Positions 2,421 through 19,420 of a DNA stretch of 24,675 bases are shown here, piece after piece. Made by a program: the position numbers and the translations under genes. Origin of the DNA: a virus; the IMG/VR virus record IMGVR_UViG_3300042691_019820, positions 1 to 24,675 of that record. One strand, written 5' to 3'. Below the pieces are notes generated by a model, which worked only from the letters and a program-made list of their open reading frames with translations, ran no database searches and was not told the origin of the DNA. The stretch's first letter is position 1. Each line of letters begins with the position of its first letter.

Positions 2421-2940
2421 CGATGACGAATATATAACTTGTGTTACTAACGAAATTAAAGAGTTTGGTAATTTTTACGAATGTCCAGAAGAAATAATTA
2501 TTGATTTTCTTAAAGGAACTAAACGTTTTGCAGCACATAAGATTAGAGTAAAAAATTGCAAAGATTTAGTTATTGAAGAAGTTAAACATGAATCATATAT
2601 ACCTATATACAAAGATATCTTTGTTCTTCAAAATAAAAATCTAAATGATTCATTGATGTTAAAAGTTATTCATGATTTGCAAAACAAATGTTGGAAGTTT
2701 GAGTTAGGAGAAGATTTTAAAAAAACTTTTCAAGATAATCAATATTATAAAGTACTAAGTTTTTTTATTTGTAACTCCGAAGACTACAATTTATTATATA
2801 GAAAAATTGAGATAGAAACTAAGTCATTATTAAACAACAATATAGTTTCTCCTTTCGTTAATAAAATTGAAGAAACTCCTGAATTACTTGCTGTAATAAC
2901 AAGAAAATATATTGATCAAATTGGAGTAATACATGTCTAA
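2395..2940 (+). CDS. Unknown protein within the glycosyltransferase-like cassette
   Basis: A 181-residue protein of unknown function. The N-terminus is acidic and aromatic (WYVYYDDDEYITC), followed by mixed alpha/beta sequence with no recognised catalytic motif. The start at 2395 lies 26 bases inside the preceding gene but has a good Shine-Dalgarno (AGAGGA, about 6 bases upstream), which favours this start over later Met codons. Its stop overlaps the next gene by 8 bases. Its tight embedding between DxD proteins suggests a partner or acceptor-side role in the same pathway, but nothing in the sequence shows this directly. Confidence 0.65.
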   Translation: MQTWYVYYDDDEYITCVTNEIKEFGNFYECPEEIIIDFLKGTKRFAAHKIRVKNCKDLVIEEVKHESYIPIYKDIFVLQNKNLNDSLMLKVIHDLQNKCWKFELGEDFKKTFQDNQYYKVLSFFICNSEDYNLLYRKIEIETKSLLNNNIVSPFVNKIEETPELLAVITRKYIDQIGVIHV

Positions 2941-3829
2941 AATCAATGTAATAGATCAAGATATAATTTTTTTAAGTTATGATGAACCCAATGCTGAAAA
3001 AAATTATGCAGATTTGTTAACAAAAATACCTTGGGCAAAGAGAGTTCACGGTGTTAAAGGATCAGATAATGCACATAAAGCTTGTGCAGCAGCAAGCGAA
3101 ACAGAATATTTTGTAACAGTAGATGCTGATAATATTGTAAATAAAGATTTTTTTTCAGTATCAATTGATTTAACAGAATTGAATCTTACTTCTGATCATG
3201 TTTTCAGTTGGTGTGGACATGTACATGTTAATGGGTTGATGTATGGTAACGGCGGACTAAAGATGTGGACCCGCAAATTTGTAAATGAAATGCGTACACA
3301 CGAAAATTCTGATCCAGACGATGTTAAAGGAAAAGTTGAATTTTGTTTCGACAAGAGGTATTATCAGTTCGATGAATGTTACAGTGAAAGCTTTACAAAT
3401 TCTACACCTTTTCAGGCATGGAGAGCGGGATTTCGTGAAGGTGTAAAGATGAGTTTAGATCAAGGAGCAAAGGTAAATAGAATTCAAGGCGTTTGGTGGC
3501 AAAACTATCAACGATTGTTAATTTGGTCTAACGTAGGAGCCGACGTTAAAAATGGTCTTTGGTCAATGTTAGGAGCTCGAGAAGGGTGCTTTTTAACTAA
3601 TTGTACAGATTGGGATTATGCCAATGTTCGTGATTTTGAATATCTTACAGAATATTTTAACGAACATTATAAAGACAAAGATATAGATTTAGAGAAATTA
3701 AATTGGTACGGTAATTCTTTACAAAAAAAATTAGATATGCCAATAGCAACATTAGACGAAGATGGATCCAAATTTTTTAAAACTGTTTATAGAAATATAC
3801 CTAGAACGATAAGAAGGAATTTATTTTAA
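2933..3829 (+). CDS. DxD glycosyltransferase-like protein related to the repeat protein at 6304
   Basis: A 298-residue protein. Its N-terminal segment is a short beta-alpha-beta unit, then GSDNAHKACAAASETEYF and VDADN, where D64-A-D66 is a DxD-type motif. The C-terminal half contains PFQAWRAGFREGVK, RLLIWSNVGAD and a GAREG element. The same order of elements occurs in the last repeat of the protein at 6304-8037 (FNAHKKAAELSTTPMFW, DSD, PFNSWKSAFRECVK, RLEVWCTVGKD), so the two share a family. A GGAG six bases before the ATG supports the start. It probably acts on nucleotide sugars, but the donor is unknown. The radical SAM gene follows with a one-base TAATG overlap, which implies co-expression. 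Confidence 0.7.
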   Translation: MSKINVIDQDIIFLSYDEPNAEKNYADLLTKIPWAKRVHGVKGSDNAHKACAAASETEYFVTVDADNIVNKDFFSVSIDLTELNLTSDHVFSWCGHVHVNGLMYGNGGLKMWTRKFVNEMRTHENSDPDDVKGKVEFCFDKRYYQFDECYSESFTNSTPFQAWRAGFREGVKMSLDQGAKVNRIQGVWWQNYQRLLIWSNVGADVKNGLWSMLGAREGCFLTNCTDWDYANVRDFEYLTEYFNEHYKDKDIDLEKLNWYGNSLQKKLDMPIATLDEDGSKFFKTVYRNIPRTIRRNLF

Positions 3830-5229
3830 TGGATAAAGAAAAGATAATAGAAATTAAAAGGAAATTAGATAATGTTGGTCCAGGTTTTTGTTTAGCTAAA
3901 TGGACACAGGTTACGGTGCATTTAGGAATCGGACATACACACAGTTGCCATCATCCTGCTAGTCATAAAATTCCTTTAGAAGAAATCAAAATAAATTCGT
4001 CTGCATTACATAATACACAATACAAAAAAGAAAGACGAAATGAAATGCTAAATGGAATAAGACCGCAAGAGTGTCAGTATTGTTGGTCAGTCGAGGATCT
4101 TAAAAATAGCGATGATTTTAGTGACAGAGTACTTAAAAGTTCTGATGATTGGTCTTATCCTTATTTTGATGAAGTTTTAAAAGCCGGCGCAGAAGGAAAC
4201 ATTACTCCAAAATATTTAGAGATAAGTTTTTCTAATGTATGTAATTTTAAATGTAGTTACTGTAATCCCGCTATTAGTAGTAAATGGATGGAAGAAATTG
4301 AAAGATATGGTCCATATAAAACACATGGCAATTATAATAATTTAGAACATCTTGTTTCTGTAGGAAAAATTCCATTAAAAGCCAGCGAAAATAATCCTTA
4401 TGTTGATGCGTTTTGGGAATGGTTTCCTAAAATCTATAAAGATCTAAATACTTTTAGAATTACAGGAGGCGAACCTTTACTAGACAAGAATCTATTTAAG
4501 GTTTTAAATTATATAATTGATAATCCAAATCCTAAATTAGATTTATCAATTAACACGAATCTCTGTGTGCCAGATAATTTATTTGATTCTTTTCTAGAAA
4601 AAATTAAAATTATCACAGAAAATAATTTAGTAAAAAAAATCTGGTTGTTTACAAGTTGTGAGGCTTATGGAAAACAAGCAGAATATATTCGTTATGGATT
4701 AGATTATAATTTTTGGCTTAAAAATTGTGAAAAATATATTCAACAGGTTCCAGGCGGCGATATACTTGTAATGGCAACATATAATAATTTAAGTTTAGGT
4801 TCTTTTAAATTATTTTTAGGAGATGTTTTTAATTTGACTAAACAATCTTTTATTAGTTCCATAGAGAATAAAACACAATCTGCCTTTAGAATTGATATTC
4901 CTCGTTTAGTATATCCACAGCATCAATCTATAAATATCTTAACCGAAGATTTCGAAAAATATTTCGATGATCAGATTAATTTTATGAAGTCGAATTTCAC
5001 ACATGCTAAATTTTCAGGAGCCGGATTTAGCGAATATGAAATACATAAATTAGAACGAGTAAAACACACTTTTAAAGAATCTTTAGGAAATAATGAACCG
5101 TTTAAAAACATTTTAAGAAAGGATTTCGCTATTTTTGTGGATGAGCATGATAGACGAAGAGGAACTAATTTTTTAGAAACTTTTCCAGAAATGGAAAAGT
5201 TCTATTATATGTGTAAAGAATTAATTTAA
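3829..5229 (+). CDS. Radical SAM enzyme with Cys-rich N-terminal (twitch-like) region
   Basis: A 466-residue protein. The radical SAM motif CxxxCxxC is C138-NFK-C142-SY-C145 and would hold the 4Fe-4S cluster that cleaves S-adenosylmethionine. A GGEP motif (FRITGGEPLL, near residue 225) follows at the usual distance and contacts SAM. Before the core lies a Cys/His-rich part (C40-HH, then ECQYCW with C82 and C85), consistent with an N-terminal twitch-type auxiliary Fe-S site as in the twitch-domain radical SAM proteins common in marine phages. Enzymes with auxiliary clusters often modify peptides or small molecules. The substrate here is unknown. It starts at the TAATG overlap with the DxD gene before it. 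It is the last rightward gene before a convergent amidinotransferase gene, with only 24 bases between them. Confidence 0.85.
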   Translation: MDKEKIIEIKRKLDNVGPGFCLAKWTQVTVHLGIGHTHSCHHPASHKIPLEEIKINSSALHNTQYKKERRNEMLNGIRPQECQYCWSVEDLKNSDDFSDRVLKSSDDWSYPYFDEVLKAGAEGNITPKYLEISFSNVCNFKCSYCNPAISSKWMEEIERYGPYKTHGNYNNLEHLVSVGKIPLKASENNPYVDAFWEWFPKIYKDLNTFRITGGEPLLDKNLFKVLNYIIDNPNPKLDLSINTNLCVPDNLFDSFLEKIKIITENNLVKKIWLFTSCEAYGKQAEYIRYGLDYNFWLKNCEKYIQQVPGGDILVMATYNNLSLGSFKLFLGDVFNLTKQSFISSIENKTQSAFRIDIPRLVYPQHQSINILTEDFEKYFDDQINFMKSNFTHAKFSGAGFSEYEIHKLERVKHTFKESLGNNEPFKNILRKDFAIFVDEHDRRRGTNFLETFPEMEKFYYMCKELI

Positions 5230-5253: not shown

Positions 5254-6225
5254 CTAAACTATATCTCTGTCAATATCTAGTGTTACACAATGAAATCCTC
5301 CTCCCAATGTTCTTTGATGACGCATAGGAAGCATTTCGCAATCGATGTTGTATTTTTTTAATTCTGATCTCAAGTCATGTTGATTTTCTTCTAAAACTAC
5401 TAAATCAGAATTTATACTAAACAAGTTCATTGAGATCCACTTTGAAGCATTACAGTATCCTGGAAAATGACCTTTATCTACAGGCTCGGGACAGTATATT
5501 GCATCCCAAGTATTAAATGGAGCAGGTAAAATGCTTTTGTCTTTAATTCTTTCAGGATTTAACAGCATTAATCCTTCTTTTAGAAATGCTATTGTACTAT
5601 CAATGTGAGTGTAATTATAAACATTTTCCAATAAATGAACTTTAGCTTTATGACCTAATAGTCGCTGTAAAGATTCCGCTCCTGTTTTATTTCCGCTATT
5701 TGAAACTAGATATAATAAATCTTCATTAGCTCTGATAACATTGGCAGCATCAAATTTTGGATGACTTTCTTTTAAAGCTAAAACATCAGGATTTCCTATA
5801 CATTCTGCATTGTATACATCGTTTCCGACATAATTTGGAATAACATTCAAATAAGGAAAATAAAACAACATTGACATGTATTCTTTTCTTCGTTTCTGTA
5901 ACGCCATCGGTGCAGCGATTTGAATTTGATCATAAATGACTACAGAATCCCTTGGACAATAAAAATGGTATTCAGGAGTCATTTCTGGATTTGGTCTTAC
6001 AACGGTAACATTACAACTTTTTAAAAAATCGCAAAATTTTTCTAAGTCTTCATTGGCTTCGTCGATAACTTGTTGTGGATAATGCCCTTGCAGTATTTCA
6101 GATTCGTCAGTTATGTGAGAATAATTTACAGTTCTTAGACTAATATCTATTTCTGGAATTTTAGCATTATTTGCAATACCAACTATAACTTTGTTTAGTT
6201 TTCCCCATTCGTTACAATTTTTCAT
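5254..6225 (-). CDS. Glycine amidinotransferase-like enzyme
   Basis: This matches the glycine amidinotransferase branch of the arginine deiminase fold, which transfers the amidino group of arginine to an amine (glycine in the classic enzyme, giving guanidinoacetate). Numbered from the start chosen here (323 residues), the family landmarks are FDAANVIR (D159), THIDST (H207) and LGGGFHC (C313, the nucleophile). They occur in the expected order with SKWISMN between the last two. The ATG at 6225 is preferred over the one at 6252 because TAGGAAG lies six bases upstream, while the upstream ATG touches a late promoter box and has no Shine-Dalgarno. It is a single leftward gene between rightward ones and divergent from the repeat protein. 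The acceptor amine is unknown; an amino sugar, amino acid or peptide are all possible. Confidence 0.85.
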   Translation of the reverse strand: MKNCNEWGKLNKVIVGIANNAKIPEIDISLRTVNYSHITDESEILQGHYPQQVIDEANEDLEKFCDFLKSCNVTVVRPNPEMTPEYHFYCPRDSVVIYDQIQIAAPMALQKRRKEYMSMLFYFPYLNVIPNYVGNDVYNAECIGNPDVLALKESHPKFDAANVIRANEDLLYLVSNSGNKTGAESLQRLLGHKAKVHLLENVYNYTHIDSTIAFLKEGLMLLNPERIKDKSILPAPFNTWDAIYCPEPVDKGHFPGYCNASKWISMNLFSINSDLVVLEENQHDLRSELKKYNIDCEMLPMRHQRTLGGGFHCVTLDIDRDIV

Positions 6226-6253
6226 TTGTCTTCCTAAGATTTTTAACACCATT

Positions 6254-6303: not shown

Positions 6304-8037
6304 ATGTATGATATAGTAGTGATAACGGATTCACTTCATCCGTCTTACGAACTTTTAGTAAAAAAATATCCTTTCATTAAAAAAGCAAAAAATTTTAATG
6401 AAGCGCGATCTATTGCGATGACCAAAATGTTTTGGGTCGTTTGGGATTATATTTTCTTAGACGAAAATTTTAATTTCGATTTTGAGCCACCTGATTATGA
6501 TAAAAAATATGTCCATATATTTTCTGTAGAAAATTCTGATTTACCAGGTGTTTGCTTATTTCCTAAAGATCTACATGTTTCTACAAAAGAATTAGAATAT
6601 AAATTTTTTGCAAATAGTAAAAAAATAGATATTATTTCTGCTATCATGAAACCTAGTTCAGATATCATAGTTATAACAGGTGCATGTCATCCGTCTTACG
6701 AACTTTTAGTAAAAAAATATCCTTTCATTAAAAAAGCAAAAAATTTTAATGAAGCGCAATCTATAGCAACAACCGACATGTTTTGGGTCATTTGGGATTA
6801 TATTTTAGTAAATGGCAACTTTGATTTTCTGTTTGAGCCACTTGATTATGATAAAAAATATGTTCATATATTTTCTGTAGAAAATTCTGATTTACCAGGT
6901 GTTTGTTTAGTTCCTAAAGATCTGCATGTTTCTACAAAAGAATTAGAATATAAATTTTTTGCAAATAGTAAAAAAATAGATATTATTTCTTCTGTAAAAA
7001 GATTATATGATGTTTTTTATCCTAAATCTTACGAGGATTATTTAAAAATATTTGATACAGCATCTACAGAAATGTACTGGGTAGTTCATCCTTCTTTAGA
7101 AGTAATGACAGATTTTAAATTTGATTTTGTAATAGATCAAAATAACGAATATGAAAAAAACATAACCCATGTATTTTTAAATAAAGATATTGATGTAGAT
7201 ACATTTAATGGTATTTTACTATGTTCGAAAAATATTAGATTACATCAAGACGAGTTCGAGTTAAGAATTTTAGATCATAAAAAAGAACATCCTGTACTTG
7301 CTAGTTTCAATAAGCCTTATGATATATTTTTTATAAGTTATAACGATGTGTTAGCAGATAGCAAGTTTGAAACACTTCAAAAAAAATTTCCTAGAGTAAA
7401 ACACATTAAAGATATTAATGGAATTTTTAACGCACACAAAAAAGCAGCTGAACTATCTACCACTCCAATGTTTTGGGTTATTGATTCTGATGCAAGATTA
7501 GTAGAAGATTTTAAATTTGATTTATTAGTTCCAAAATATAATCATAGTTCTGTGTTTGTATGGCACAGTAAAAATCCAGTGAACGATTTAGAATATGGTT
7601 ATGGAGCAGTAAAATTGTTACCAAAAATTTCAACTATGAAAGTAGAAAATAATTTAGACATGACAATGTCTATTAGCAAAAACTTTTATGTAATAGAAGA
7701 AGTTAGTAATTATACAGATTTTAATACAGATCCTTTTAATAGCTGGAAAAGTGCTTTTAGAGAATGTGTTAAGTTAACATTAAAGTCTGATAATGATCCT
7801 GAAGCAGCACAAAGGCTCGAAGTATGGTGTACTGTCGGAAAAGATAAACGATATGGAAATTATGTTATTGACGGAGCCAATCAAGGAAAACTATATGCAA
7901 AAAACAATGCCGACAATCAGTCGGCATTATTAAAAATTAATGATTTTAATTGGCTCGAAGATCAGTTTGAAATAAGATCTGAAATTAACGGAAACACTTT
8001 TGAAATTACTTCAGCACAGGCTTTAGCAACTTCTTGA
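6304..8037 (+). CDS. Four-repeat DxD glycosyltransferase-like protein with three degenerate repeats
   Basis: A 577-residue protein made of four copies of one domain, starting near residues 3, 120, 236 and 340. Each copy has a DI/DV beta strand, a helix with KKFP/KKYPF, an M(F/Y)W(V)(V/I) strand and an FxFDF element. Repeats 1 and 2 are near identical. Only repeat 4 has a DxD (D394-S-D396); repeats 1 and 2 have WDY and repeat 3 has HPS at that place. After repeat 4 comes a unique C-terminal part (PFNSWKSAFRECVK, RLEVWCTVGKD, GANQGKLYA) that matches the protein at 2933-3829. The last domain is therefore the likely catalytic unit, with the others as binding or scaffolding copies (inference). It is driven by its own late promoter, so a role in virion assembly or late surface modification is plausible. 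Its 3' end overlaps thyX on the opposite strand by 76 bases. Confidence 0.75.
   Translation: MYDIVVITDSLHPSYELLVKKYPFIKKAKNFNEARSIAMTKMFWVVWDYIFLDENFNFDFEPPDYDKKYVHIFSVENSDLPGVCLFPKDLHVSTKELEYKFFANSKKIDIISAIMKPSSDIIVITGACHPSYELLVKKYPFIKKAKNFNEAQSIATTDMFWVIWDYILVNGNFDFLFEPLDYDKKYVHIFSVENSDLPGVCLVPKDLHVSTKELEYKFFANSKKIDIISSVKRLYDVFYPKSYEDYLKIFDTASTEMYWVVHPSLEVMTDFKFDFVIDQNNEYEKNITHVFLNKDIDVDTFNGILLCSKNIRLHQDEFELRILDHKKEHPVLASFNKPYDIFFISYNDVLADSKFETLQKKFPRVKHIKDINGIFNAHKKAAELSTTPMFWVIDSDARLVEDFKFDLLVPKYNHSSVFVWHSKNPVNDLEYGYGAVKLLPKISTMKVENNLDMTMSISKNFYVIEEVSNYTDFNTDPFNSWKSAFRECVKLTLKSDNDPEAAQRLEVWCTVGKDKRYGNYVIDGANQGKLYAKNNADNQSALLKINDFNWLEDQFEIRSEINGNTFEITSAQALATS
6310..7011 (+). repeat. Tandem duplication, two 351-base units inside the repeat protein gene
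   Basis: Unit 1 (6310-6660) and unit 2 (6661-7011) repeat at exactly 351 bases (117 codons). Stretches 6337-6406 and 6688-6757 are identical over 70 bases, and 6574-6639 and 6925-6990 over 66 bases. The remaining differences cluster at the unit start and in a middle block. The high DNA identity, including silent sites, marks a recent duplication or ongoing gene conversion. Older copies (repeats 3 and 4) are recognisable only at protein level. Confidence 0.95.
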
Positions 8038-8630
8038 TGTTCTTTTTGTGTACCATTCGCACTGCGTAGTTCAATGAAATGTACCCAACTACGTAATGTA
8101 CCATTCATGTAAAGTCTGCTTTCGATTAATCCTTCTGGTAAAACAGCACGAGCTTGTTCTTTAGCAATACCGTTTTCAATAGCCCAGTTGTAAGCCATAC
8201 GTGCTTCGGCAATTACATTGTTCTGCCATTTTTCCCAACGTTTTTGTAAATCTTCATCGTCGATTTCTATACTGTTTTGTCTGTTATTGGTGTCTTGAAG
8301 TCTTGCTTCTCGTCTAACGAAGTTAAGATCTTTTGTAGGGTCAGCATATCTCTGACTGAACTCTTGGAAACTGAAACTTCTGTGACGTAAGATTTGCCTT
8401 GCAATATCTCGTGTTGTCGTAATTTCCATGCAAGCTGATACCATCTCGAGAGGACTCCAGTGTTGGTGTTTAATGAGGTACCTGATGAGCTTGCTACTGG
8501 TGTCGTGATTGAACTGATTACTCGGGTTCGAGACTCGGGCGCAGAATGCGATGAGTTCTTGAGCATCGGTGATTCCAAGGGAGGCAAAGTCGCTAGTTGG
8601 TTGACTGTAGGATAAAAGTTTAACATGCAT
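7962..8630 (-). CDS. thyX: FAD-dependent thymidylate synthase ThyX
   Basis: ThyX converts dUMP to dTMP with methylene-tetrahydrofolate, NADPH and FAD, supplying thymidine for phage DNA. The signature RHRxxSxxxxSxR is present as RHRSFSFQEFSQR at residues 82-94, and the downstream substrate-binding segment ESRLYMNGTLRSW and HFIELR are intact. At 222 residues it has normal family length. The ATG at 8630 gives the usual MxVKLLSY start, and the gene follows the stop of the gene before it (8635) after four bases. Its last 25 codons lie antisense to the 3' end of the repeat protein gene. It sits at the downstream end of the long leftward block. Confidence 0.96.
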   Translation of the reverse strand: MHVKLLSYSQPTSDFASLGITDAQELIAFCARVSNPSNQFNHDTSSKLIRYLIKHQHWSPLEMVSACMEITTTRDIARQILRHRSFSFQEFSQRYADPTKDLNFVRREARLQDTNNRQNSIEIDDEDLQKRWEKWQNNVIAEARMAYNWAIENGIAKEQARAVLPEGLIESRLYMNGTLRSWVHFIELRSANGTQKEHQEVAKACAEVISKVFPLISDLISN

Positions 8631-11909: not shown

Positions 11910-13001
11910 TTAGTTTCGATCCGTTGCTGCCGCAATATATTTGCCATATTTTGCATGGAACTGGTCGAAACATTCAATTTCGTCCGGATCCAACGGAAGT
12001 TGATACTGGGTAAGTGCCAACTTAGTACCCATAACAACCAATTCAGTTTCAAAGTTGTTCATGATAAAATTGAAGAAGTTGTTAACTTTCTTATTCCAAT
12101 CTTTTTCATTCTTGTCGCAAGAATCTTTAAGTTCGTAGCAAAGACTAACAGTCAATGAATACATAGCCGAAATTTCTTTAGATTCCATCTTAGTAATTTT
12201 ACCTGACAGAATGTCTTCTGGCTTAGGCATTTTGCTGGCGATTTTACGATGCGCCATAAACTTAACTGCAAGTCCTTCACCAACAGCACCTGAGACAAGG
12301 TCTGTTAGTGTGTTCTCGTCCTCGTCGTCATCAAACAACAATTCGCTAACGAATGCCCAACTACGAGGAGTAGCAAAAGCACGACTACCACTCTTTGGAT
12401 CAAAGTCGTACAAATCTTTCTTAGAGAAAGAAAGGAAACCTAGAACGTCTTTGTGAATACGATTGTCAGTGGCCCAAGTAAAATAGTCATCCCAGTCAAC
12501 ACGCATCTCTAAGTGTACAAAACGATTTGCCAACGGAGCAGGCATACGATATGTAACACCCTTGTCGCTTTCACGATTGCCCGCAGCAACAATATGAACA
12601 TTGTCTGGAAGTCGGTAAGTGCCTACACGACGATTCAAAACCAACTGATAAGCAGCAGCCTGAACAGCAGGTGCCGCACTGTTCATTTCATCCATAAACA
12701 AGATAATTTGTTTATGATTTTTAGCCATCTCAGCGTCAGGCAACTCGATTGGAGGAGCCCACGCCATCTTACCATTGTCGCTGTCAAAGTAAGGAATACC
12801 TTTAATGTCAGTAGGCTCCCACAAGCTCAAACGGATATCGATCACGTGAGCATCAAGTTCTTCGCCTAGCTGTTTAACAATATCGGATTTACCGATACCC
12901 GGAGGACCCCAAATAAACAAAGGACGATTCGCTTTGAAAGCACGGCGCAGAGATTTCTTAGCAGCCTTAGGACCTACTTGACGCGAGATGATTTCGCTCA
13001 T
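11910..13001 (-). CDS. MoxR-type AAA+ ATPase
   Basis: A 363-residue ATPase. Walker A is GPPGIGKS (32-39), Walker B is IILFMDEMN (99-107), sensor 1 is AAGNRES (139-145), and the arginine finger is probably R160 in PLANRF. This order and the pairing with a VWA/metallopeptidase partner are typical of MoxR proteins, which remodel or mature protein complexes. The ATG at 13001 has AAAGG seven bases upstream, and a perfect sigma70-type promoter stands 59 bases before it. Codon use looks richer in G and C than in the cassette at 410-8037. The specific phage target is unknown; a role in host takeover or virion maturation are both inference. Confidence 0.92.
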   Translation of the reverse strand: MSEIISRQVGPKAAKKSLRRAFKANRPLFIWGPPGIGKSDIVKQLGEELDAHVIDIRLSLWEPTDIKGIPYFDSDNGKMAWAPPIELPDAEMAKNHKQIILFMDEMNSAAPAVQAAAYQLVLNRRVGTYRLPDNVHIVAAGNRESDKGVTYRMPAPLANRFVHLEMRVDWDDYFTWATDNRIHKDVLGFLSFSKKDLYDFDPKSGSRAFATPRSWAFVSELLFDDDEDENTLTDLVSGAVGEGLAVKFMAHRKIASKMPKPEDILSGKITKMESKEISAMYSLTVSLCYELKDSCDKNEKDWNKKVNNFFNFIMNNFETELVVMGTKLALTQYQLPLDPDEIECFDQFHAKYGKYIAAATDRN

Positions 13002-15503: not shown

Positions 15504-15949
15504 GAAACTTCTGACTTTCCTTGACTAATTGGAATTACATTAATATAACCAGAACCTCGAGTTATGTCTAGTCCTTCTTCGGCTAACATATTTCTGACAA
15601 TATCTCGAAACCAACGATCTACAATTTCTTCTTCTGGATCACCATCCAATCCGTATCCAGCTTGCCTTAATTGTACAATAAAGTACTCGTTCCAGTCAAG
15701 TTCAAAAAATCCATTTCTTGGATTTTCTGGATTTACTTTAGTATCTAAAACAGCAATATACGGCTCTTTTAATTCAGTAGCACGTTCTTTTGGAGACATC
15801 TTAGCCAATTCTTCTTGACGTTTGGCTTCTTCTTCTTGAGCTTTAGCTTCGGCTGCACGAGCAAGCGATTCTGCTCGTTCTTGTTCGAACCGTTCTCTTT
15901 CTTCTTGTAATTTTTTGATACCTGTTATTTTTTTAATAAATTCTTTCAT
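15500..15949 (-). CDS. Conserved phage protein with charged coiled coil
   Basis: A 149-residue protein. Residues 12-55 form a strongly charged helix rich in Glu, Arg, Ala and Gln, a probable coiled coil. It is followed by a globular alpha/beta part (ELKEPYIAVLDTKVNPENP, GFFELDWNEYFIVQLRQAGY, EEEIVDRWFRDIV). The globular domain is a familiar conserved unknown of T4-like cyanophages. The start is the ATG at 15949, which overlaps the stop of queE (TAATG) and has GGGGA just before it. An ATG four codons upstream lies inside queE and is less likely. The coiled coil suggests it forms oligomers or docks on another phage protein. Confidence 0.78.
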   Translation of the reverse strand: MKEFIKKITGIKKLQEERERFEQERAESLARAAEAKAQEEEAKRQEELAKMSPKERATELKEPYIAVLDTKVNPENPRNGFFELDWNEYFIVQLRQAGYGLDGDPEEEIVDRWFRDIVRNMLAEEGLDITRGSGYINVIPISQGKSEVS

Positions 15950-16797
15950 TAGGTTCCCCAAGCATTTTTAAATAGAGGAACCTGCAATCTGTCACTGTAT
16001 CGTAATCCATGTTTCATCGCAAGCTCTGCAACGGTTCTGTTATTTAGAGTATAAACAGATTCGACACCGCCCACAGGCATCAAATATACATGCCCAGAAA
16101 ACCCTTCTTTTTTATACAAGTCTATAACCTCTAATGCTTCATCGACATCGTCTTTAGTTGCTACTACAAATTTAAGATAGGTGTGACCTAAGTCTTCGTA
16201 GTCTCGGACTATGTCTGGACGAATAGCATCCTCACGTTTTTCTCCGCTAACACTTAGTTTAGGGCTAACACTAAATGTTAAGTTATGATATCCATGTTTA
16301 TGAGCCCATTTATAAAGATAAAGACGAAATTCTTTACTTATTTCTTGAGTGCCGTTAGTTTCAAATGTGATATCTTTTAATTTTTTAAGTTTATCATGAC
16401 TAAGTAAGTCTGGATAACTACGCTGCCAACCTAATAACGGTTCACCACCAGTTATAACTAGATGTACATCTCTCCATTTATTGTCTGGAAGAATTTCTAC
16501 CATTCTATCTGCAATGGCATCAACAGTAAGAACAGGACTAAGATCTTTAAATCTAGGATCCCAACTGGCATAACTATCGCAGCCTGTTTCGACTATAGGC
16601 AAGTCTTCATATTTGGTAAACATGTGAACTACTTCTGCAATGTCATCATTAGCAGTACTACGTTCCCCACGTGGCATTCCAAATCCAGCGCAAGTAAAAT
16701 TGCAACCAAATGTACGTAAGAAAATAGAAGGAACGCCCATGAAGCGTCCTTCTCCTTGTATACTATAAAATAGTTCAGCTATTTTTATTTTACTCAT
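15949..16797 (-). CDS. queE: 7-carboxy-7-deazaguanine synthase QueE
   Basis: QueE is the radical SAM enzyme that turns carboxy-tetrahydropterin (CPH4) into 7-carboxy-7-deazaguanine, a precursor of preQ0, queuosine and phage 7-deazaguanine DNA bases. The family start FYSIQGEGRFMGVPSIFLR is plain, followed by GCNFTC, the ITGGEPLLGWQ SAM-binding motif and FETNGTQEI. The third cluster cysteine is not at the usual +3 position after C2. It appears to be in TGCDSYASWD, 36 residues further on, and that sequence still resembles the usual CDxxYxxW context. At 282 residues the protein is longer than the common ~220-residue form because of this insertion. Gene overlaps: ATGA with the gene before, TAATG with the gene after. 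Confidence 0.92.
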   Translation of the reverse strand: MSKIKIAELFYSIQGEGRFMGVPSIFLRTFGCNFTCAGFGMPRGERSTANDDIAEVVHMFTKYEDLPIVETGCDSYASWDPRFKDLSPVLTVDAIADRMVEILPDNKWRDVHLVITGGEPLLGWQRSYPDLLSHDKLKKLKDITFETNGTQEISKEFRLYLYKWAHKHGYHNLTFSVSPKLSVSGEKREDAIRPDIVRDYEDLGHTYLKFVVATKDDVDEALEVIDLYKKEGFSGHVYLMPVGGVESVYTLNNRTVAELAMKHGLRYSDRLQVPLFKNAWGT

Positions 16798-17824: not shown

Positions 17825-18592
17825 TTATCTTGGGGCAAAATCTTGTTGTAATTTAATGTTATCAAAGAATTCTTTCTTTGTACCTATGTCGTTTTTAAAT
17901 GCACCTTTTAATACAGTTGTTTGTGTTAAACTAGAGTGTGCCATAATTCCTCTATTTTCGCAGCAACCGTGTGTAGCTTGTACGTAAACACCTACATCCT
18001 TGGCTCCTGTAGCAAGTTCGATTTCCCTAGCAATGTCATTAGCAAGTTCCTCTTGGAGAGTACCACGCCTTGCACACCACTGTGCGATGCGGGTGTACTT
18101 ACTGAGCCCAATGAGCTTGGAAGCCGCAATAATGCCAATATAGGCAACACCATTAACGGGCTGATGATGATGACTACACATACTACGAAGCTCACTGCGA
18201 ACAACCAGCATACCTTCGTAACGGTCCTCCGAGTCATTTGGAAATGCTGTTGCATCGGGTCTTGGATCATATCTGCCTGCCATTATTTCGTTAAAATACA
18301 TTTTAGCCAGTCTACGTGCTGTACCTTTGCTATTCGGATCGGACTCTCTATCAATTAATAAACGATCGAGAACTAGCTCAAATGCTTCTGTTGCTTCGTT
18401 AATCAAATGTTCTTTATCGCTGTCGTGTAGATAATCACTGATATTATCACCTGCCCAGAATCTTTTACCATCGCGTTTCATTCTAGCACGAATTGCAGCT
18501 GATAGTGTCGATTCTTGATAACCACCGTTGCCTGCCATTGCATCCAGACCTGTTTCGTCATCGTTGCTTTCATAAACTTTGTTGTATACCAT
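17825..18592 (-). CDS. folE: GTP cyclohydrolase I (FolE)
   Basis: FolE opens GTP to 7,8-dihydroneopterin triphosphate, the first step of both folate and 7-deazaguanine synthesis. The T-fold signatures are clear: RSMCSHHHQPV (zinc ligands C139 and H142), GLSKYTRI, LQEELANDIA and THGCCENRG (third zinc ligand C210). At 255 residues it is longer than the ~220-residue bacterial enzyme because of an N-terminal extension of about 50 residues with a Gly-rich stretch and a basic helix. The ATG at 18592 has AAGGA eight bases upstream. It is the first gene after a sigma70-type promoter and heads the unit that contains queE and the exonuclease. Confidence 0.95.
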   Translation of the reverse strand: MVYNKVYESNDDETGLDAMAGNGGYQESTLSAAIRARMKRDGKRFWAGDNISDYLHDSDKEHLINEATEAFELVLDRLLIDRESDPNSKGTARRLAKMYFNEIMAGRYDPRPDATAFPNDSEDRYEGMLVVRSELRSMCSHHHQPVNGVAYIGIIAASKLIGLSKYTRIAQWCARRGTLQEELANDIAREIELATGAKDVGVYVQATHGCCENRGIMAHSSLTQTTVLKGAFKNDIGTKKEFFDNIKLQQDFAPR

Positions 18593-18611: not shown

Positions 18612-18640
18612 ATTTTAATATGTTATTTAGGTTGTGTCAA
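18612..18640 (-). promoter_or_regulatory. Sigma70-type promoter for the folE unit
   Basis: On the minus strand TTGACA (18640-18635), a 17-base spacer and TAAAAT (18617-18612, one mismatch to TATAAT) stand just before folE. The -35 box and part of the spacer lie in the last codons of the UDP-glucose dehydrogenase gene. It resembles the two promoters of the MoxR and VWA genes and should be read early by host polymerase. Confidence 0.78.
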
Positions 18641-19420
18641 CCTTAGCAAAGTATTTTTCTTTACTGCGGAATCCAATGTATTTAGGTTTATGCCTAAACT
18701 TTCGGCATATTTTAATAGTGCATTTGTATCTTTCGGAAAGCAACCACCACCGAAACCGTAGTGTCCATCTAGGCCAGGGACTTGTGTATGACTATGACCT
18801 ATTCTTTCATCCATTTTTATTAAATAGGCAAGATGTTTCCAATCATAATTATGAGTAACTGCTAGTTGATTTAGTTCGTTCATAAAAACAACTTTAAGAG
18901 CTAAGAACGAGTTTATAGAATATTTGACGAATGCTGCTTCTCCAATACCGCATAGTTCTATATGTGTAAGATTCACTTGTAGCATCTTACATATTCTAAT
19001 AGCTTCTCTTTGATGAGCACTGACAGTTCCGCCGACAATAAGCCATTTAGCATTTGCAAAATCAGTAAAATGATTATCTGCTCTTAAAAATTCTGGAACA
19101 TATACTAAATTAGGAAATTTTTTCGACTGTTCTTCATAAAATTTAGGAGGAGCAGTAACTTTACTAATAATAGTACCATTATAATCTTGTAAGTTGACTA
19201 ATACATCTCCTAATATACTAGTATCGCACTCGCCGTTTTCACCTTGAGGACTAGGTACGCAGACAAAAATAGAACTACACTCTTTTTTTATTTTATCATA
19301 TGTAGCAGTGAACCCTTTTGCTGGATCTAAAATTATTGATTCAAGAGGAGGCATAGTTGCTTGAGCAATAGCTTCTCCTACATAGCCGTGTCCAATAATG
19401 CCAATTTTTTCGTAGTTCAT
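18623..19420 (-). CDS. Short UDP-glucose/GDP-mannose dehydrogenase family protein
   Basis: This resembles UDP-glucose 6-dehydrogenase, which oxidises a nucleotide sugar to its uronic acid with NAD. The Rossmann motif GIIGHGYVGEA (residues 7-17), VCVPSP, PEFLR (109-113), K166 and N170 in VKYSIN, and the catalytic cysteine C227 in GFGGGCFPKD are all present. With 265 residues the protein ends soon after the cysteine and lacks the C-terminal UDP-binding domain of the usual ~390-residue enzyme. It is not a frameshift remnant, since the reading frame is intact and the following folE promoter uses its end. Short forms occur in cyanophages. It may need a partner or use another donor. The start is coupled to the gene before by ATGA. 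Confidence 0.82.
   Translation of the reverse strand: MNYEKIGIIGHGYVGEAIAQATMPPLESIILDPAKGFTATYDKIKKECSSIFVCVPSPQGENGECDTSILGDVLVNLQDYNGTIISKVTAPPKFYEEQSKKFPNLVYVPEFLRADNHFTDFANAKWLIVGGTVSAHQREAIRICKMLQVNLTHIELCGIGEAAFVKYSINSFLALKVVFMNELNQLAVTHNYDWKHLAYLIKMDERIGHSHTQVPGLDGHYGFGGGCFPKDTNALLKYAESLGINLNTLDSAVKKNTLLRLTQPK

Follow-up and report, generated by a model that had tools for sequence, protein, structure and literature searches.

Why would a phage keep several copies of a glycosyltransferase-like domain that have lost the DxD motif in front of a single copy that has retained it? This question is raised by a gene at positions 6304–8037 (+ strand) of a viral record (IMG/VR IMGVR_UViG_3300042691_019820), of which a stretch of 24,675 nucleotides (hereafter the window) was analysed. 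A first-pass annotation, made from the letters alone, had described the 577-amino-acid product, here named R, as one catalytic-type unit fused to non-catalytic copies, and this description is backed by the sequence, by the secondary structure predicted for each of the four units and by the family of R as a whole.

Translation of the open reading frame, together with motif and unit comparison, divides R into four units in the order dead-dead-dead-live, where live refers to a unit with DxD at the aligned site and dead to a unit without it. Unit 1 (aa 1–117, 6304–6654) and unit 2 (aa 118–232, 6655–6999) carry WDY at this site (aa 47–49, 6442–6450, and aa 164–166, 6793–6801, respectively), and unit 3 (aa 233–336, 7000–7311) carries HPS (aa 262–264, 7087–7095). 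Unit 4 (aa 337–577, 7312–8034) is composed of a GT-A-like domain and a helical C-terminus, and its DSD (aa 394–396, 7483–7491) is the sole DxD at the aligned site within R; all four motifs, on the + strand like the units, lie at the residues previously reported for them. Two types of dead unit can be distinguished: type a (units 1 and 2), starting with a complete first beta-alpha element and containing TKMFWVVWD or a close variant, and the short type b (unit 3), in which the first beta-alpha element is missing. The helical C-terminal extension (aa 477–562, 7732–7989, +) is present in live units and in the family of a single-domain paralogue, here named S (298 aa, with DAD; 2933–3829, +), and is absent from dead units. 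The earlier suggestion that this extension resembles S was correct but too narrow, as the match spans the whole live unit, including the GT-A core.

Compared with shuffled sequences, the similarity between units reached Z-scores of 95 (units 1 and 2), 12 (units 1 and 3), 12 (units 1 and 4) and 8 (units 3 and 4), and that between unit 4 and S reached 39. Profiles of the dead units also align with that of the live unit, both for type a (98.3%, E 1e-14) and for type b (97.2%, E 4e-11), which confirms that the three kinds of unit are homologous. The live unit and the S family aligned over 226 columns (100%, E 6e-45).

Both R and S are predicted to adopt the GT-A (nucleotide-diphospho-sugar transferase) fold. 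In the AlphaFold2 model of R, obtained with eight relatives (pLDDT 77.5, pTM 0.53), one order of strands and helices is common to all units, with unit 3 lacking the first two elements and the helical extension following unit 4 only; the dead units have the same predicted topology as the live one, which speaks against the possibility, raised at the outset, that units 1–3 represent another fold. S was modelled with a pLDDT of 85.8 and a pTM of 0.83. The best Foldseek matches were almost all GT-A transferases, and E-values reached 4e-5 (R) and 2e-5 (S). In a VIA comparison, unit 4 alone aligned with glycosyltransferases at a Z of about 10 (rmsd 3–4 Å, about 130 residues). Because nucleotidyltransferases of the same superfold (IspD, MobA) were found at similar Z, glycosyl transfer cannot be concluded from the fold alone. 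The GT-A fold and DxD are also present in relatives other than transferases.

A scan of viral contigs with R returned 58 loci, and at least 595 stretches matched the profile of the live unit, 80 of which were fetched. Unit calls were made on distinct proteins, amounting to about 100 distinct viral relatives. Repeat number varies: the relatives contain from zero to nine dead units, followed, rare exceptions aside, by one C-terminal DxD unit. No dead unit is present in L051, seven are found in L169 and L176, and nine in L171, which is open at its 5′ end. D[GAS]D was observed in 102/102 readable C-terminal viral live units and in 60/61 bacterial relatives. The live triad is DGD or DAD, with DSD occurring in the genome of R and in its near-identical relative L003, and the live unit also contains the invariant motifs NP.N.L.YG.G.VK and W[KR]S.FREC. 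Homologues with DxD in all repeats, which would have spoken against a non-catalytic array, were not encountered: only one of the 161 readable dead units shows the DxD pattern (DDD, in L137). Sequencing error can be excluded as the cause of the missing motifs, since the pattern recurs in independent contigs and L003 repeats units 3–4 almost exactly. In L050 a second live-like unit, first in order, carries the triad DGS. This protein (L050:938–1993) and the one with the DDD-bearing dead-type unit (L137:4923–6044) may represent intermediates or independent duplicates.

The dead units have a signature of their own, consisting of TKMFWVVWD (near-invariant in type a), triads starting with W, and a K-K-E stretch towards the end of the unit. 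Tryptophan is the first triad residue in 56/60 readable type-a units and in 53/101 readable type-b units; a single conserved sugar-binding tryptophan does not fit all dead units, as the residue is found in only about half of type b. The K-K-E stretch is kept, and in the predicted structure it sits in the long strand that links successive units. The strong conservation of the former active site in type a argues for a pocket that was remodelled rather than abandoned.

A tree built from 155 units (46 live, 109 dead) separates the two kinds without error (support 0.978). Given this clean separation, the dead domain probably has a single origin followed by multiplication, as opposed to repeated loss. 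In close gene pairs dN/dS ranged from 0.02 to 0.08 for dead units and from 0.03 to 0.13 for live units; the dead units are maintained by strong purifying selection, as indicated by these low values, comparable with those of the live units. Complete neutrality of the array, i.e. dead units as functionless by-products of tandem duplication, is extremely unlikely: unit number does vary between close relatives, and L051 has no dead units at all, but the low dN/dS, the near-invariance of TKMFWVVWD and the single ancient dead lineage on the tree are all at odds with it.

Within R, units 1 and 2 share 89% DNA identity over 300 nt and are a relatively recent duplicate (dN 0.085, dS 0.22). Their differences cluster around residues 35–65, and the longest run free of differences exceeds chance expectation (p 0.006), which suggests that the duplication was followed by partial conversion or local recombination. 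Similar turnover is visible between relatives. L124 and L128 are 96% identical in their live units and 98% in S, but L124 has three dead units instead of four, being shorter by one 100-residue unit's worth, and its first unit is a mosaic. At one syntenic position, with ThyX downstream, from zero to three dead units are found. In L131 and L142 (about 60–66% identical) the first four dead units are encoded by a gene of their own (L131:3362–4720; L142:3419–4717), which lies upstream of, and overlaps, the gene for a protein with one dead unit (L131:4689–5669; L142:4695–5672), indicating that the array need not be covalently linked as a whole. Whole units are gained, lost and recombined in the array. 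The pair L028 and L029 was considered as another case of unit loss and set aside, the L028 contig being short and the 61 residues that it lacks lying inside one unit of L029 and not being unit-sized.

The genes surrounding R have a recurrent order. Viral loci typically consist of a tail-fibre gene (PHROG tail fiber, E 1e-9), one or two virion-like genes (so called from reading the sequences adjoining the tail-fibre gene), a 116-aa ORF, two glycosyltransferase-like ORFs, an ORF of about 190 aa, S and R, often followed by one to three radical SAM genes. The window contains, on the + strand, the conserved 116-aa ORF (410–760) between the virion and glycosyltransferase-like genes, the conserved pair of glycosyltransferase-like ORFs (757–1575, with LDVDY recognised by eye, and 1572–2420, with DxD recognised by eye and matching phrog_1903, of unknown function), and the conserved ORF of about 190 aa (2395–2940), for which no family was found. 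S (2933–3829) lies directly upstream of R in most viral relatives; in the window it is separated from R by a twitch-type radical SAM gene (3829–5229, +; NF033640, 311 bits against a cut-off of 170) and an amidinotransferase gene (5254–6252, −), the latter opposite in strand to the otherwise conserved operon around it. The closest solved relative of the amidinotransferase is the Streptomyces inosamine-phosphate amidinotransferase (1bwd, E 1e-58), and transfer of a guanidino group to an amino-sugar-like substrate is conceivable; its matches to TAL effectors were regarded as local chance resemblance. A strong terminator-like hairpin (370–405, +; 14 pairs followed by a T run) is located after the virion ORF and just before the operon. 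At the other end, R and the convergent thyX (7962–8630) share 76 nt at their 3′ ends (7962–8037). Promoter-like sites in the window occur at chance level. One copy of the T4 late-promoter word TATAAATA is found 34 nt upstream of R, but it is not claimed as a promoter of R because the four copies in the window compare with 4.8 expected by chance.

Relatives with a single live domain are also present in bacteria: in Bdellovibrionia they lie beside twitch radical SAM genes, in Streptomyces and Dyadobacter beside glycosyltransferases, and one is fused to a radical SAM/SPASM protein. Neither a type-a nor a type-b array was detected in these single-domain relatives. In three loci of Bdellovibrionia and Oligoflexia (L063, L073, L068) at least three radical SAM genes are clustered with members of the transferase family, and the fusion protein is encoded within one of these clusters (L068:6747–8708).

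Existing resources offered little annotation for this family. No significant Pfam, PHROG, NCBIfam or PADLOC family was found for R, and GT2 models (Pfam Glycos_transf_2 and related) did not match R or S at E ≤ 1; the best GT2-type match among the relatives was that of the L061 live unit to PF13641 (E 1.3e-3, 19.2 bits), below the cut-off of 27. PADLOC models gave no match for R, S or the glycosyltransferase-like ORFs at E ≤ 0.01, and the radical SAM neighbour matched the PADLOC viperin models weakly. When R, S and a relative with one dead unit served as tblastn queries against cultured phages, nothing was returned at E ≤ 1e-3. The live-unit profile had no match in a PDB sequence search; the weak matches of the S profile to an ammonium transporter and a DARPin were taken as chance. 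By contrast, nearly the whole R model is matched by two BFVD entries from uncultured Caudovirales, A0A6J5LK21 (804 aa, E 8e-35) and A0A6J5L5L5 (1076 aa, E 1e-32), which are most likely members of the R family with more units.

Among characterised proteins, several resemble R in part. Chondroitin polymerase K4CP (2z86), the top Foldseek match of R (4e-5), and CHSY3-CHPF (9q8z) also have tandem GT-A domains per chain. In K4CP the donor is bound in both domains, whereas R combines one DxD domain with short dead units. S resembles ThuS/SunS (7msk, 7msp) and the PBCV-1 capsid glycosyltransferase (2p6w) in fold and DxD (E 2e-5 to 1e-4), at 10–17% identity; these enzymes have no pseudo-glycosyltransferase array and no curated family in common with S. 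The single-domain proteins of Bdellovibrionia, Streptomyces and Dyadobacter have a live domain homologous to that of R, with D[GA]D. Membrane-bound serotype-converting phage glycosyltransferases contain transmembrane segments, unlike R, whose hydropathy over 19 residues peaks at 1.41. The closest parallel in architecture is human LH3 (PLOD3, 6fxm; Foldseek E 7e-5 to 1e-4 against the whole R model), in which a catalytic glycosyltransferase domain is fused to a GT-A-fold accessory domain whose activity has apparently been lost (PMC6082870), indicating that such a domain can persist in a non-catalytic role. R likewise carries, in the chain of its live unit, non-catalytic copies that have lost DxD and whose profiles align with that of the live unit. 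The two proteins differ in that LH3 has a hydroxylase domain and a single accessory domain that follows the live one, whereas in the R family zero to nine dead units precede the live one and R ends in a helical extension without a Pfam family; they share no sequence family. A live glycosyltransferase with a pseudo-glycosyltransferase partner is thus already known, and R-related proteins are publicly available as uncharacterised entries. A variable, recombining and selectively kept array of up to nine such units in front of one catalytic domain was found in none of the libraries or papers searched, including the literature on inactive glycosyltransferase arrays, where nothing on the family of R was found.

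The reading that we prefer, to which we give about an even chance, is that R belongs to an undescribed GT-A-fold family and acts as a soluble phage glycosyltransferase, with an array of pseudo-glycosyltransferase units that binds or docks an acceptor on the virion or the cell surface. The C-terminal unit, with its GT-A core, DxD and helical extension, would be the only catalytic site and would use a nucleotide-sugar as the donor for sugar transfer. The N-terminal units would descend from one pseudo-glycosyltransferase domain after loss of DxD, often with a conserved tryptophan in its place, and type b would have lost the first beta-alpha element as well. As non-catalytic modules these units may hold the acceptor, likely the tail-fibre or another virion protein whose gene lies immediately upstream, or alternatively a glycan of the host surface; the virion protein is favoured, only mildly, because R adjoins the tail-fibre genes. 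Recombination within the array, by adding, dropping and exchanging units, could then change acceptor binding quickly. As many operon neighbours are radical SAM enzymes, what is finally made may be something other than a simple glycan. An array serving as a ruler had also been suggested, but proteins with more units do not tend to have a longer virion protein encoded next to them (Spearman 0.06, p 0.81, n=19), and unit number shows no clear correlation with the number of radical SAM genes either (Spearman 0.33, p 0.07, n=30, without correction for kinship).

The dead units may instead be spacers or oligomerisation elements that bind no sugar and serve to space or assemble the live unit of R, S and the radical SAM enzymes. 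This is a genuine possibility, albeit on the less likely side, and it would agree with the position of S directly upstream of R in most relatives, with the array being a gene of its own in L131 and L142, and with the conservation of K-K-E in the inter-unit strand. In a pure spacer, however, the former active site would not need to keep a conserved residue such as the tryptophan of type-a units, and L051, which has no dead units, keeps the remaining operon, so that not every phage needs the array for assembly. For these units a docking or binding device remains the most likely role.

It is somewhat doubtful that the same enzyme acts on the host surface, R and its neighbours building or altering, in the course of infection, an O-chain or other surface glycan (superinfection exclusion) to which the dead units bind. 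Pelagimyophage host-recognition clusters combine tail fibres with glycosyltransferases, some of them also with radical-SAM cassettes, and a change of the host O-chain was proposed as their role (PMC7029224), and the bacterial relatives adjoin glycosyltransferase genes; against this, R has no membrane segment, its gene comes after virion genes, and S ranks high against the protein-glycosylating ThuS, SunS and PBCV-1 capsid enzyme, even if a shared fold does not show function. Twelve radical SAM genes have been reported in some T4-like ocean viruses (PMC5332604), and the family of R is not named in the passages of these two papers that were consulted. Glycosylation of modified phage DNA bases by R is very unlikely: genes for a QueE-like protein (15949–16797), GTP cyclohydrolase I (17825–18592) and ThyX (7962–8630) are present in the window, but they lie on the opposite strand and are not part of the conserved operon, which accompanies tail genes, and in bacterial chromosomes the same family is found beside radical SAM or glycosyltransferase genes.

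A more specific form of the docking model, which we consider unlikely but worth stating, is a modular reading head in which every dead unit would use its remodelled former active site to recognise a single sugar or peptide element of the acceptor. Recombination, by altering how many units there are and in which order, would then rewrite the acceptor specificity of the one catalytic domain in step with changing virion or receptor structures. R and its relatives would then represent an enzyme class in which up to nine pseudo-enzyme copies program one live copy. The family also provides a natural series, from zero to nine units and with near-identical pairs one unit apart, for asking what pseudo-enzyme domains do, and it points to a widespread, undescribed glycosylation-type operon linked to the tail fibres of large aquatic phages.

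Some further genes of the window are reported here for completeness. The QueE-like radical SAM protein and GTP cyclohydrolase I, both encoded on the − strand, correspond to two steps of 7-deazaguanine synthesis. A UDP-glucose dehydrogenase-like ORF (18623–19420, −; 265 aa, phrog_9148) matches its profile from position 65 onwards, and is shorter than the UDP-glucose dehydrogenase of 406 aa found next to the operon in L036. Finally, an ATPase (11913–13001, −) is 51% identical to that of PA5oct-like Pseudomonas jumbo phages, a hint that the window may derive from a large myovirus.
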